A stretch of DNA of 5,956 nt, from the NCBI GenBank assembly GCA_946408865.1, contig CAMJTZ010000121.1, positions 1-5,956 of the forward strand, read 5' to 3'. The notes under the pieces are model-generated. The model saw only the letters and a list, made by a program, of their open reading frames with translations, was not told the origin of the DNA and searched no databases. Source of the DNA: an uncultured Clostridia bacterium (GTDB taxonomy: Bacteria > Bacillota_A > Clostridia > Christensenellales > Aristaeellaceae). Positions 1 through 4,617 of this stretch are shown piece by piece. Numbering within the stretch: position 1 is the first letter of the stretch; each line of letters opens with the position of its first letter. Both the position numbers and the translations under genes were made by a program.

Positions 1-388
1 GTTCATGGATCCTCCGGTCATAGACAGGAAAAAGACAGGTTCCTTCTGTCCGTGCCTCTATGAGTTTCCGGCAGAGTTTTTCCACATCGTAAGTTTCCGG
101 AGCGCCTTTGATCTCAGCTCCGTAAACCGCTCCCTCCGGTCTTTCTATGACCATATGGGCCAATGTTTCATTTCTGTAATGAAAGCCATCGATGGAAATG
201 CTTTGCAGCAGACCATCCGAGCGTACTTCCATCAGCTTTCCCAGTGTGCTCTTCCCGGCTCCGCTGGGCCCCAGAATCACAATGAACTGCCCTTCTTCAA
301 GGGACAGATTCACGTGGTCCAGTGCCCGCTGTTCATGTTCACCGTTACGGTATACCCGGGAAACATTCTCAAATTCCACAATGGCCAT
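1..388 (-). CDS. Chimeric P-loop protein: ABC ATPase N-terminus joined to a nucleoside/pantothenate-type kinase (partial, 3' end off window)
   Basis: The frame is open from ATG 388 to the window edge (129 codons, no stop). Residues 1-48 are ABC-ATPase-like: an opening beta strand (IVEFENVSRVY), an A-loop tyrosine at Y13, the RALDHVNLSLEEGQF stretch, and Walker A GPSGAGKST at residues 40-48. An ABC protein should continue into a GGMD...SG region and a Q-loop. Instead the frame continues with features of the P-loop nucleoside/nucleotide kinase family: SIDGFHY near 65-71, KGAPETYD at 94-101 and PVYDRRIHE at 121-129. The kinase part lacks the longer N-terminal region its relatives have before the P-loop. 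The start has AGAGG about nine bases upstream and a good promoter. What is seen is one uninterrupted chimeric frame. What is inferred is a recombination at the shared Walker A sequence, or a misassembly there. Whether the product is active cannot be told, because the C-terminus is missing. Confidence 0.8.
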   Translation of the reverse strand, partial: MAIVEFENVSRVYRNGEHEQRALDHVNLSLEEGQFIVILGPSGAGKSTLGKLMEVRSDGLLQSISIDGFHYRNETLAHMVIERPEGAVYGAEIKGAPETYDVEKLCRKLIEARTEGTCLFPVYDRRIHE

Positions 389-419: not shown

Positions 420-435
420 GTTAGCTATAACTAAC
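420..435. promoter_or_regulatory. Near-palindrome at the transcription start; candidate MarR-type operator
   Basis: GTTAGCTATAACTAAC has matching GTTAG/CTAAC arms and is symmetric at 14 of 16 positions. It sits where transcription from the promoter at 442-470 should begin. TTAGTTA/TAACTAA-type sites are known for MarR-family repressors that control ABC exporters. Assigning this site to MarR is inference. Confidence 0.45.
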
Positions 436-441
436 GCACAT

Positions 442-470
442 AAATTACTACAACTGGTTTATTTTGTCAA
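442..470 (-). promoter_or_regulatory. Sigma-A type promoter of the chimeric ABC/kinase gene
   Basis: On the minus strand, TTGACA (470-465) is followed after exactly 17 bases by TAATTT (447-442). The expected transcription start is near 435, giving a leader of about 47 bases before the ATG at 388. A perfect palindrome overlaps the -35 box and a near-palindrome covers the expected start point, so repression is likely. Confidence 0.65.
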
Positions 471-511: not shown

Positions 512-1972
512 TCATTCCCCAGATGGCGATGCGGTCCCGTTCGCCGCGATCAGGTTTTTGTAAAAATCCACCGCTCCGGGCAGACAGTTGTATTCTATAT
601 TCTCGTTCATCCCGTGCATGCCCTTCATCTGCTCCGGCCCGTAGATCACCGGCGCAAAGCGCACCACGTGCTCCGCGATCTCCTCGTAGAACCGGGCGTC
701 CGTCGCTCCCGTCATCACGTAGGGGCAGGTTTCCAGCCCCGGGAACGTCTTCCCGATCACCTGCCGCACCAGCGAAAAACCTTCTCCCTGGATATCCACG
801 CTCCGGGAGGCGTCCACCGGGTGGAACACTTCCATCTCCAGCCCGTGCTTCTTCGCGATCTTCCGGGTCTTCTTCAGGCTCTTCTCCATCCCCTCGTGGG
901 GGATGAAGCGCATGTTGGCCCCCAGCGTTGCCTCCTGCGGCAGCACGTTGTAGGCGTCCGACCCGGACAGCCGGGTAAAGGCGATCGTCGTCTGCAGCAT
1001 CGCCCCGGCCTGCGCGCTGATCGCCGGCAGCACCCGGATCAGCAGCGGCCGGAACAGCCACATGTTGCCGAACAGCAGCCGCATATAGAACGGCGCGTAG
1101 GGCGCAAGCTGCTCGAACAGCGCCTGCACCTCCGGCAGCATTTTTCTTTTGAACACCTTTTTATGCTCAAATGTCCATACGAAATCCGCGATCCGGGCCA
1201 CCGGCGTATGCTTGCCCGGCGCGCTGGCGTGTCCCCCCGCGGAGCGGGCGGTAAAACGGATGTCCGCCTTTCCCTTCTCGAAAACGCCCGCCATGGCGAA
1301 ATTGCCTTTGATGCCGCCCACGGGATCCCGGATGATTCCCCCGCCTTCATCACATACGAGGAAGGGGCGCACGCCCCTGCGTTTCAGCTCCGCGACCAGC
1401 TTCGGGCATCCGTCCCCGGACCATTCCTCCGTGCAGGAGGAGGAGAGATAAACATCGTTCTCCGGCTCGTATCCTTCCCGCAGCAGCTCCTCCGCCGCCT
1501 GCAGGAACGCCATCACGCTGCATTTCGTGTCCGACGCGCCGCGGCCCCAGACCTTGCCCTCCGCGATGTCCCCGGAGAAGGGAGCATGTTCCCATTCGCC
1601 CTCCGCCGGCACCACGTCCTGGTGGCTCATCAGCACCAGCGGCCGCCGGCTGTCCCTGCCCTTCCAGTAGAACAGCAGGTTCCCGTCGATCTCGGTCTTC
1701 TCCAGTTTCGCGTGCACCAGCGGAAACAGCTCCTCCAGCAGCGCGTGAAACTGCAGAAATTTCTCCCGCTGGTCGGTCTCCGGAACGCTGACTGTCTCGC
1801 ACGCCACCATCCGGCTCAGCTTTTCCGCGTATTCCTTCGCCCGCTCGTCCGCGGGCGGCGCTTCGTAAACCGCCTTTTTCACCGGCATCCGCAGCGTCCG
1901 GACCAGCGCGGCCGCCAGCAGCGCAGTCACCGCCGCGGCCAGGCAGATCATCACAATCCAGAAAGTGCTCAT
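512..1972 (-). CDS. Membrane-anchored M20 family metallopeptidase (PM20D1/CPS1-like)
   Basis: This 486-residue protein is a di-metal amide or peptide hydrolase of the M20 family. Expected zinc and catalytic residues are all visible: H117 and D119 in SHQDVVP, D148 in GRGASDTK, the E182/E183 pair in CTEEWSGDG, D208 in VCDEGGG, and H453 in KGMHGMNENIEYN. The dimerisation-domain signature GGHASAPGKHTP lies at 247-257. The spacing and wording resemble PM20D1 and yeast carboxypeptidase S, which act on N-acyl amino acids or dipeptides. Residues 4-25 form one hydrophobic segment followed by R25, R28, K32 and K33, so the enzyme is probably anchored with its catalytic domain in the cytoplasm. The start ATG at 1972 overlaps the stop of the upstream membrane gene (ATGA), with AAGGA nine bases upstream. 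It is last in its operon. The exact substrate cannot be read from sequence. Confidence 0.92.
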   Translation of the reverse strand: MSTFWIVMICLAAAVTALLAAALVRTLRMPVKKAVYEAPPADERAKEYAEKLSRMVACETVSVPETDQREKFLQFHALLEELFPLVHAKLEKTEIDGNLLFYWKGRDSRRPLVLMSHQDVVPAEGEWEHAPFSGDIAEGKVWGRGASDTKCSVMAFLQAAEELLREGYEPENDVYLSSSCTEEWSGDGCPKLVAELKRRGVRPFLVCDEGGGIIRDPVGGIKGNFAMAGVFEKGKADIRFTARSAGGHASAPGKHTPVARIADFVWTFEHKKVFKRKMLPEVQALFEQLAPYAPFYMRLLFGNMWLFRPLLIRVLPAISAQAGAMLQTTIAFTRLSGSDAYNVLPQEATLGANMRFIPHEGMEKSLKKTRKIAKKHGLEMEVFHPVDASRSVDIQGEGFSLVRQVIGKTFPGLETCPYVMTGATDARFYEEIAEHVVRFAPVIYGPEQMKGMHGMNENIEYNCLPGAVDFYKNLIAANGTASPSGE

Positions 1973-2646
1973 TGCTTTTTGTCCTTCCGGTATTTCAGCC
2001 ACGCCAGCAGAATGGCCAGCGCGCCGCTGGGAATAATCAGGATGCTGGTCTGGCTCTGCAGCGACGGCACCAGGATGAACAGCGCGCTCATCATCAGCAG
2101 CGGCCACACCGCCAGGCCCAGGTTCTTCCGGTAGTATTTGTACGCCATCGCGCCGAAGAGCGCCGGCACCACGTTGTCAAACGCCGGGGTCAGCACGGGA
2201 TTCTCAAGCACCGGCTTGAGGGGCTGCAGCAGAAGCACGCCTGCCGCCAGCACCAGGATGGTTACCAGGGAGGAAACCGCGATAGACAGCGTGGAGACGA
2301 TCTCGTTCTCCTTCGTTCCCGCCTTCACCCCGGCCAGGTCCCGGGCGTTCACCGCGCAGGGAATCTTCATGTTGATCAGGTTCCCCGTAATAAAGGCCAG
2401 GTAGCTTCCGCCGGAGCCGAGCATCGGCGTGTAGACCAGGAACTCCACCACCGAGGAAACCGTCCACACCAGGCCGACGGCCAGGAACCCCTTCCCCGCC
2501 GCCTGCAGGTCCGGCATCGCGCCGAGATACGCGCCGATCGCGAAGGGCGCGCCGATCAGCATCGCCAGCGTGATCAGGGATACGATCCGCCCCAGAACGT
2601 GCGTTCCTTTTTCGTATTTCGTGAGGATCTCATTCTTGTTTTCCAT
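1969..2646 (-). CDS. Multi-spanning membrane protein, probable partner of the DUF5058 protein
   Basis: This is a 225-residue integral membrane protein that I cannot assign to a named family. Hydrophobic segments lie near residues 20-42, 51-73, 118-141, 157-168 (weak), 175-194 and 200-217. The N-terminus (MENKNEILTKYEKG) and the C-terminus (LKYRKDKKQ) are both charged, the latter strongly basic and so probably cytoplasmic. A glycine-rich stretch between segments, from PMLGSGG at 74-80 to TGNLINMKIP at 87-96, could form a re-entrant loop of the kind found in transporters. ATG 2646 is preceded by AGGGGG at a spacing of eight. The gene begins 13 bases after the DUF5058 stop and overlaps the M20 gene by 4 bases, so the three are almost certainly co-transcribed. 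A transport role is inferred from topology and neighbours only. Confidence 0.88.
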   Translation of the reverse strand: MENKNEILTKYEKGTHVLGRIVSLITLAMLIGAPFAIGAYLGAMPDLQAAGKGFLAVGLVWTVSSVVEFLVYTPMLGSGGSYLAFITGNLINMKIPCAVNARDLAGVKAGTKENEIVSTLSIAVSSLVTILVLAAGVLLLQPLKPVLENPVLTPAFDNVVPALFGAMAYKYYRKNLGLAVWPLLMMSALFILVPSLQSQTSILIIPSGALAILLAWLKYRKDKKQ

Positions 2647-2659
2647 TCTTCACGCCCCC

Positions 2660-3412
2660 TTACAGAATCTGCGCCAGCAGCACGGCTCCGGCCATGCCCG
2701 TCAGCATGGACAGCGCCAGGGAGACGTCCTCCAGCCAGTGCAGTTTTTTCTTCTCCGCGATCCGGGTGATCAGCGCCATCGCCAGCGCGGCGATCACCGC
2801 CGTCAGCAGCGGAATCAGGCTTCCGCTGAAGTTGAATACCTTCCCGTTCGAAATCCACTGTCCGAGATAGGAACCGATATACGCGCTGACCAGGCCGACG
2901 AACATGGCGGTCATCGCCGAATCCCCGAAGGAGGCTGCGCCGTCCTTCCCCGCTTTCGGGGCGGAAAGGCGTTTCGTGTACTTTTTGTTCAGGAACAGGT
3001 TCAGAATCATGCCCCACATGATGCACACGGACATCAGCAGCGCGATCGTGGAAAATGCGGGCGCCGTCATCTGGCTGGCGGAAAGGCTGATCCCAACCTG
3101 CTCCGCCGCGCCCTGGGCAACCTGCGTCTCATAGTGCAGCGCGCCGATCACGCTCAGCCGCAGCCACGGCCAGGGAATCCCCAGCGCGCCGGACAGCGCG
3201 ATCACGCCCAGCAGAATCCCTACCGCGGGCAGCACGGAAAACGACGCGGAAGACGTCACCACGCGCTTCAGCACCGCCGTATCCATTCCGATCGCCTTGC
3301 CCGCTTTCCACGCGCGCACCGCGAACACGACGCATACCGCCGCGACGAAGAGCACGATTCCCCCGCAGATCAGATACATCACCGGGGAAGAAAGCTGATT
3401 GATCACCGACAT
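2660..3412 (-). CDS. DUF5058 family multi-spanning membrane protein (putative transporter component)
   Basis: This 250-residue polytopic membrane protein has hydrophobic segments near 10-33, 55-79, 117-140, 164-186, 196-217 and 230-250. I recognise the layout and the motif around residues 58-94 (SFSVLPAVGILLG, then GIPWPWLRLSVIG and HYE) as DUF5058, a family of unknown function in Bacillota. A basic cytoplasmic loop (KKYTKRLSAPKAGK) lies at 143-156. The start is ATG 3412, because GGAGGTG (3421-3427) lies eight bases upstream. The GTG at 3421 overlaps that ribosome binding site, and the TTG at 3418 is too close to it. The partner gene follows after 13 bases, then an M20 hydrolase, which suggests the pair imports, or otherwise moves, the hydrolase's substrate. 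That role is inference. Confidence 0.88.
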   Translation of the reverse strand: MSVINQLSSPVMYLICGGIVLFVAAVCVVFAVRAWKAGKAIGMDTAVLKRVVTSSASFSVLPAVGILLGVIALSGALGIPWPWLRLSVIGALHYETQVAQGAAEQVGISLSASQMTAPAFSTIALLMSVCIMWGMILNLFLNKKYTKRLSAPKAGKDGAASFGDSAMTAMFVGLVSAYIGSYLGQWISNGKVFNFSGSLIPLLTAVIAALAMALITRIAEKKKLHWLEDVSLALSMLTGMAGAVLLAQIL

Positions 3413-4050: not shown

Positions 4051-4296
4051 ATGACAAATATTGTTCCGATTTCAGATCTGAAGAATTACTCTGAAGTTCT
4101 CAGCTGCTGTGATGACGGCTCTGTTGTTTATCTGACAAAAAACGGCCGCGGGAAATATGTCGTTCAGTCGATGCTTGAATATGAGAAAATGAAAGCAGCC
4201 GTTCAGCTTCTTGCAGATCTTTCCAAAGGGATCGAATCTCTGCGCACAGAAGGCGGCCTGACGATTGAAGAAGCCTTTGAAGGTCTGGAGGAATAA
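4051..4296 (+). CDS. Phd/YefM-like antitoxin of a type II toxin-antitoxin pair
   Basis: This 81-residue protein has the Phd/YefM layout. The N-terminal half (NIVPISDLKNYSEVL at 3-17, VVYLTKNGRGKYVV at 25-38, then MLEYEKMK) resembles the fold that dimerises and binds operator DNA. The C-terminal tail (ESLRTEGGLTIEEAFEGLEE) is acidic and should wrap the toxin when bound. The start is ATG 4051: AGGGG lies eight bases upstream, and the consensus promoter ends at 4028, which excludes the longer frame from the TTG near 4000. The toxin gene follows after three bases, with its ribosome binding site inside the last codons here, so translation is coupled. The gene is richer in A/T than its neighbours, suggesting horizontal acquisition. 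By family precedent the protein should neutralise the toxin and repress its own promoter. Confidence 0.88.
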   Translation: MTNIVPISDLKNYSEVLSCCDDGSVVYLTKNGRGKYVVQSMLEYEKMKAAVQLLADLSKGIESLRTEGGLTIEEAFEGLEE

Positions 4297-4299
4297 GCC

Positions 4300-4617
4300 A
4301 TGTTCCGGGTGATCGTTTCAAAGGAAGCGCAAAGAGACCTGGTGAATATCCGGAATTATATCCGGGATGAGCTTTGCAATCCGGACGCCGCCGGCAGGAT
4401 CATCCGCGCGCTGCGTGCAGCAGTGCAGGACCTCCGGAATTTTCCCAACCGCGGAAGGCCGCTGGATGCAATGATTTCAATTCACACGGAATACCGTTAT
4501 CTTCCCTGTGAAAACTACTGTGTTTTCTATCTTGTAATTGAAAATGAAGTCTTTGTTATCCGTATCCTTCATCAGAAGCAGGATACGCTGAAAGCGTTGT
4601 TTATGGACCGGGAATAA
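4300..4617 (+). CDS. RelE/ParE family toxin
   Basis: This 105-residue protein has the length and order of elements of the RelE/ParE superfamily. It shows an opening strand and helix (RVIVSKEAQRDLVNIRNYIRDE, in two parts within residues 3-24), a second helix (RIIRALRAAVQDL, 33-45), the FPNRGRPL turn (48-55), and the closing strands YRYLPCENYCVFYLV and VFVIRILHQKQD (84-95), where the family usually shows an ILHxxRD-type ending. RelE members cut mRNA at the ribosome and ParE members poison gyrase; the sequence does not decide which, although the compact length and the RILHQKQD ending lean to the ParE/RelE mixed group. ATG 4300 has GGAGG (4287-4291) eight bases upstream. The frame is intact, so the toxin may be active. 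Its 3' end lies six bases from the convergent amidohydrolase. Confidence 0.88.
   Translation: MFRVIVSKEAQRDLVNIRNYIRDELCNPDAAGRIIRALRAAVQDLRNFPNRGRPLDAMISIHTEYRYLPCENYCVFYLVIENEVFVIRILHQKQDTLKALFMDRE

Follow-up and report, generated by a model that had tools for sequence, protein, structure and literature searches.

An ABC transporter ATPase start joined to a kinase fragment at the Walker A motif is probably a false join of two unrelated genes

Three kinds of described system come closest to the locus analysed here. ABC transporter ATPases of the LolD/MacB type that have a separate permease (P0003 and its orthologues) share residues 1–49, the start codon region and the P-loop with the open reading frame (ORF) under study; the ORF differs from them in having neither LSGG nor Walker B, and in not being followed by a permease. 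PRK09270 kinases (P0122 and the model NF006745) have the motifs GAGKSTL, SIDGFH, KGAPETYD and PVYDR, all of which recur in the ORF in the same order and ungapped, whereas their own N-terminal region, with [VI]NG[FL], is replaced by the ABC start, and their C-terminal part beyond PVYDR falls outside the DNA analysed. The third kind is not a protein family: according to the part of the review PMC7299287 drawn on here, chimeric contigs can form through shared k-mers in short-read metagenome assembly, and these likewise join sequence from two sources. The chimeras described in that part of the paper involve related species and sequencing errors, whereas the case considered here would involve a shared motif of two unrelated genes.

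The window, by which we mean the whole 5,956-nt stretch of DNA that was analysed, carries at 2–388 on the minus strand an ORF that starts with ATG, encodes 129 amino acids and is open at the left edge of the window. It consists of 49 residues of an ABC ATPase of the LolD/MacB type, followed by a fragment of a kinase of the PRK09270 group. The features of this end of the window are as follows.

2..241, minus strand: PRK09270 nucleoside/nucleotide kinase fragment, cut by the window edge (69% to P0122; NF006745, 8.7e-17)
242..262, minus strand: GAGKSTL codons (Walker A), common to both parent families and the site of the switch (motif comparison)
242..388, minus strand: initial 49 codons of a LolD/MacB-type gene for an ABC transporter ATPase (amino acid identity 98% to G003 and 94% to G012; ABC_tran, 2.6e-7)
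420..435, minus strand: operator-like inverted repeat GTTAG-N6-CTAAC with a variable centre, upstream of the ABC start
442..470, minus strand: promoter-like TTGACA - 17 nt - TAATTT, read by eye

When the two halves of the ORF were queried apart, as the first-pass annotation of this DNA had suggested, they matched different families. Residues 1–49 (window 242–388) matched the Pfam model ABC_tran at 2.6e-7, above its cut-off, with five other P-loop models below theirs, and are 98% identical to the intact ABC gene product of the relative G003. Residues 43–129 (window 2–262) were matched by five PRK09270 models of NCBIfam only, the best being NF006745, and by no Pfam model at 0.01. These matches bear out the earlier reading of the ORF as an ABC ATPase start on a kinase body, and the coordinates given for it were correct, the switch lying at 242–262. 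The kinase part is 69% identical over residues 50–129 to P0122, a PRK09270-type kinase of 252 aa, and 49–59% identical to 11 other kinase relatives; for the kinase relative P0128, the source gives the name Lachnospiraceae. Walker A, DGFH, KGAPETYD and PVYDR are all present in the kinase part in an alignment with 11 of the 12 kinase relatives, from which P0132 was omitted. The nearest solved chain by sequence is 3c8u, named fructokinase (2.7e-16). The cut ORF scores 66.5 bits, below the NCBIfam PRK09270 cut-off of 228 bits; full-length P0122 itself scores 206.8 bits and also falls below, and the cut-off is thus strict for the P0122 subgroup. All 12 kinase relatives have an N-terminal region of their own with [VI]NG[FL] and none has the ABC start, which the window ORF carries instead; the kinase therefore lacks its own N-terminal region, as had been noted from the sequence.

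Two other readings of the ORF were rejected. Full-length membership of one established family, an alternative that the first-pass annotation had itself raised, is rejected because the kinase relatives bear no resemblance to residues 1–39 and because NF006742, whose alignment begins at residue 6 of P0001, keeps its match from the P-loop onward (profile position 53) once the ABC part is taken away. A frameshifted ABC gene is rejected because the left part of the ORF has a 69% kinase match of its own.

The ABC N-terminus was found in 64 of the 308 genomes of G003's family (at 1e-18), at 65 places. We examined the best 30 of these 65 matching places, and every one has an intact gene that encodes 233 aa from ATG, includes both Walker B and LSGG, and is followed within 260 nt by the start motif of a permease. 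The observation that the window ORF has no further ABC elements after its start holds, in that LSGG and the Walker B string DEPTGALD are absent from it and present in all 30 orthologues. The further proposal, of a kinase now driven from an ABC promoter, is not supported: no relative with the fusion was found, and the 30 orthologous loci have an intact ABC gene and then the permease. These loci are orthologous genes of other species and do not adjoin the M20 peptidase gene that neighbours the ORF in the window, which makes them weaker evidence than an intact gene at this very locus. Among the remaining 35 places, G160 carries an in-frame stop (96-aa open frame). Among the 120 protein relatives listed, the best for the ABC part is P0003 (91% over 40% of the query).

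The match in G020 (L118) covers residues 1–39 only, and its 9844-base contig stops after two bases of the codon for the first Gly in the ABC P-loop; this is another break at the P-loop motif of the same ABC gene, in that genome's own copy. Breaks of a related kind occur in 13 of the 120 relatives listed for the ORF: these have the ABC start and then at least 15 residues of other sequence at the end. Two of the 13 tails match the downstream permease (P0036, 93%; P0076, 72%), four are another frame of the ABC gene (P0018, P0072, P0080 and P0120), and seven have no match in the ABC loci searched. P0052 starts as this ABC ATPase and has a precomputed Pfam label of an iron-transport domain, PF10634. 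P0036, P0052 and P0076 are possible database chimeras. From the odd-tailed relatives it is clear that breaks like these are common in the database, which is no proof that the join in the window is false.

The position of the switch can be read from the DNA. Ungapped identity between the window and the ABC gene of G003 is 51/60, 49/57 and 25/30 up to ORF base 147 (window 242), or about 85%, and drops beyond that base to 20/60 and 17/60 (33% and 28%, in 60-base blocks). BLASTN alignments to four ABC orthologues (L023–L026) also end at 242, the base with which the Leu codon of GKSTL finishes. Since the P-loop reads GPSGAGKSTLLN (GPSGAGKSTL) in the ABC orthologues (30/30), APPGAGKSTLAK (APPGAGKSTL) in the kinase P0122 and GPSGAGKSTLGK in the window ORF, the switch falls inside GAGKSTL, at window 242–262. 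We conclude that the switch was rightly placed in the P-loop by the first-pass annotation, with DNA similarity to the ABC parent stopping at the end of the shared stretch. Judging by the flanking codons, the parents could have at most 22 identical bases at GAGKSTL.

We consider it very likely that ORF 2–388 is a chimera of two unrelated genes, falsely joined in silico by the assembler at the P-loop, at a contig end. The ABC start and promoter region would come from an uncultured member of the Clostridia with relatives among rumen and gut MAGs, and the last 241 bases from a kinase gene of another organism. Both source genes carry Walker A codons for GAGKSTL, and an identity of about 21 bases between them there would let a de Bruijn-graph assembler walk from one into the other, with the contig ending soon after the join. 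The left end of the window would be that contig end, and the join would presumably be carried by no molecule. The first-pass annotation had offered two explanations, a gene born by crossover between two P-loop genes and a false join at the shared motif; the second is the better supported, and the first is not supported.

A length of 21 is a usual first k-mer of short-read (metagenome) assemblers. As a control for the false join, we compared 30 ABC genes with 34 kinase genes of the same bacterial family, or 1020 pairs; 34 of 35 kinase loci were used, L073 being left out as it did not fit the motif pattern. An exact word of at least 21 bases was common to 8 of the 1020 pairs, always at the P-loop, and words of at least 18 bases were common to 24 pairs in the P-loop segment, the longest being 26. 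Outside the P-loop, no pair among the 1020 had a word of at least 21 bases, and the longest was 16. We conclude that the P-loop is the sole k-mer-graph link between these two gene families, since among the 1020 pairs the long exact words are confined to it. None of the kinase genes examined contains the word that the window itself would share, their longest exact match to it being 11 bases, and our inference that this sample's source genes are identical over 21 bases therefore comes from the other pairs.

Kinases of broadly this kind occur in 80 of 308 genomes of the bacterial family (at 1e-8), at no more than 53% identity to the fragment. The nearest species by M20 DNA (G001, G002, G003 and G013) have no such kinase at 1e-8, and G012, likewise near by M20 DNA, is not among the 80. 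G011, also a close relative by M20 DNA, has one kinase of the group, 40% identical, which we count against a false join. With P0122 as the query, a single genome among the 391 searched from the class matched at 1e-45, at 40% identity, and one of nine further genomes matched at 1e-20, at 35% identity. The kinase half had no match at 1e-16 in 397 genomes (the family of G309) or 396 genomes (the order of G003), searches that had no positive control and so show nothing; neither these two samples nor the one of 391 genomes, likewise without a positive control, yielded a member of the P0122 subgroup at the strict cut-offs used. Viral contigs gave two pattern matches and no relative, plasmids gave one record at 1e-10, and among phages there were 79 records at 1e-5, none of which reached 60% identity; one of these records, at 29%, covers 90% of the query. 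Because it is absent from most of the nearest M20 relatives, and because the P0122 subgroup was not met in the genome samples, the kinase fragment looks foreign to the closest relatives of the ABC half, an absence that horizontal transfer could also explain. GC3 is 59% (29/49) in the ABC part and 47.5% (38/80) in the kinase part, a difference that is not significant (p = 0.21), and GC3 of kinases in the bacterial family runs from 42.5% to 90%, with values of 47.5% or less in 3 of 30. The origin of the halves is not settled by base composition.

Protein searches covering 5.8 billion proteins found no relative with an ABC–kinase fusion. The whole-ORF search returned 2103 proteins, with a top score of 92 bits; among the best 120, which were listed, only P0114 covers more than 71% of the query, and its tail, when read, is not kinase. 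This search admits proteins of up to about 233 aa, and since a full fusion would have about that length, it is not conclusive alone. When the kinase half was searched with a wider length band, 16 candidates yielded 12 hits, and the kinase half alone, without padding, gave no candidate. Both protein searches, with the whole ORF and with the kinase half, can find a relative only if it has exact 5-residue words in common with the query. A literature search found no account of a gene fusion between an ABC ATPase and a P-loop kinase, which shows little.

The lack of a second example among 5.8 billion proteins weighs against a real event, in which illegitimate recombination at P-loop microhomology put the kinase, from Walker A onward, in place of the remaining part of the ABC gene. 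Such an event would account for a join that is in frame, in a structurally equivalent loop of both families, and behind a promoter side that looks native, and the absence of the kinase from near relatives also fits horizontal transfer. However, the frame exits the window 241 bases beyond the switch, the hybrid has no counterpart of the N-terminal region found in all 12 kinase relatives, and the exchange would cost the ABC transporter its ATPase. We therefore regard recombination of this kind as unlikely. It is similarly doubtful that the ORF specifies a hybrid protein whose first strands are those of an ABC ATPase and whose core, with one shared Walker A, is that of a sugar or nucleoside kinase, and there is little prospect that the ABC promoter and operator-like repeat place a kinase under transporter control.

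In favour of a false join by the assembler we count the two families matched, the end of similarity at the shared stretch, the N-termini of the 12 kinases, the 30 intact ABC loci, the 8/1020 shared words, the kinase not found in G001, G002, G003 and G013, the break in G020 and the 13 odd-tailed relatives. Against it we count, in addition to the kinase of G011, the window's own word, which was not found (longest 11), the GC3 values, which do not differ significantly, and the reading frame, which is kept across the join and would be kept by chance in one case in three at most; at a shared in-frame motif, the frame is kept by necessity. The shared stretch would equally serve template switching, and a laboratory chimera made in this way during amplification, or a rare population variant, might have produced the join in place of the assembler. 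Nothing specific was found in favour of such an origin, which without reads has the same appearance as an assembler join, and we think it very improbable.

ORF 2–388 is thus probably an artefact rather than a new protein. If so, it carries a warning: Walker A codons are constrained enough for exact bridges of 21–26 bases to exist between genes that are unrelated and belong to different species (8/1020). Because such bridges can form, apparent fusions that switch at the P-loop near a contig end call for a read check before they enter protein databases. If the fusion were real, a new P-loop enzyme could arise by a single crossover at a motif common to such families.

Upstream of the ABC start, the GTTAG-N6-CTAAC pattern of the repeat at 420–435 also occurs within 170 nt upstream of 16 of the 30 ABC orthologues, a count made without a shuffled control. 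The repeat is a candidate operator, and because it recurs, the window looks native on its promoter side. The neighbouring gene encodes an M20 peptidase and places the window close to uncultured Clostridia MAGs, of which the nearest is about 80% identical in DNA. Across 389–511, the window places next to each other M20 and ABC genes that are not adjacent in any relative compared: the 22 M20 loci contained nothing that matched ABC at 1e-12, and an M20 match was likewise missing from the 30 ABC loci, taken with 1.5 kb flanks, and from the longer stretches examined for four of these. The genes upstream of the ABC gene differ among these four stretches, so the missing adjacency says little. GC3 is lower in the ABC part (59%) than in the M20 gene (84%; p = 1e-4), a gap that is smaller in G003 (77% vs 82%) and in G012 (74% vs 80%). 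A second false join may lie between 389 and 540.

Two further groups of genes lie in the window. At 515–3409, on the minus strand, are the M20 peptidase gene, a 225-aa ORF that has no Pfam match and a gene for a DUF5058 membrane protein (PF16481). DNA similarity covers all three in at least 13 of 22 relatives' loci, which suggests that they form a conserved unit, possibly for peptide or amino-acid uptake and processing. At 4051–4617, on the plus strand, is a small two-gene unit, an ordinary type II toxin–antitoxin pair, with an antitoxin of the Phd/YefM type (PF02604, 29.2 bits, just under the cut-off of 29.8) and a toxin of the ParE type (PF05016, 4.9e-18).
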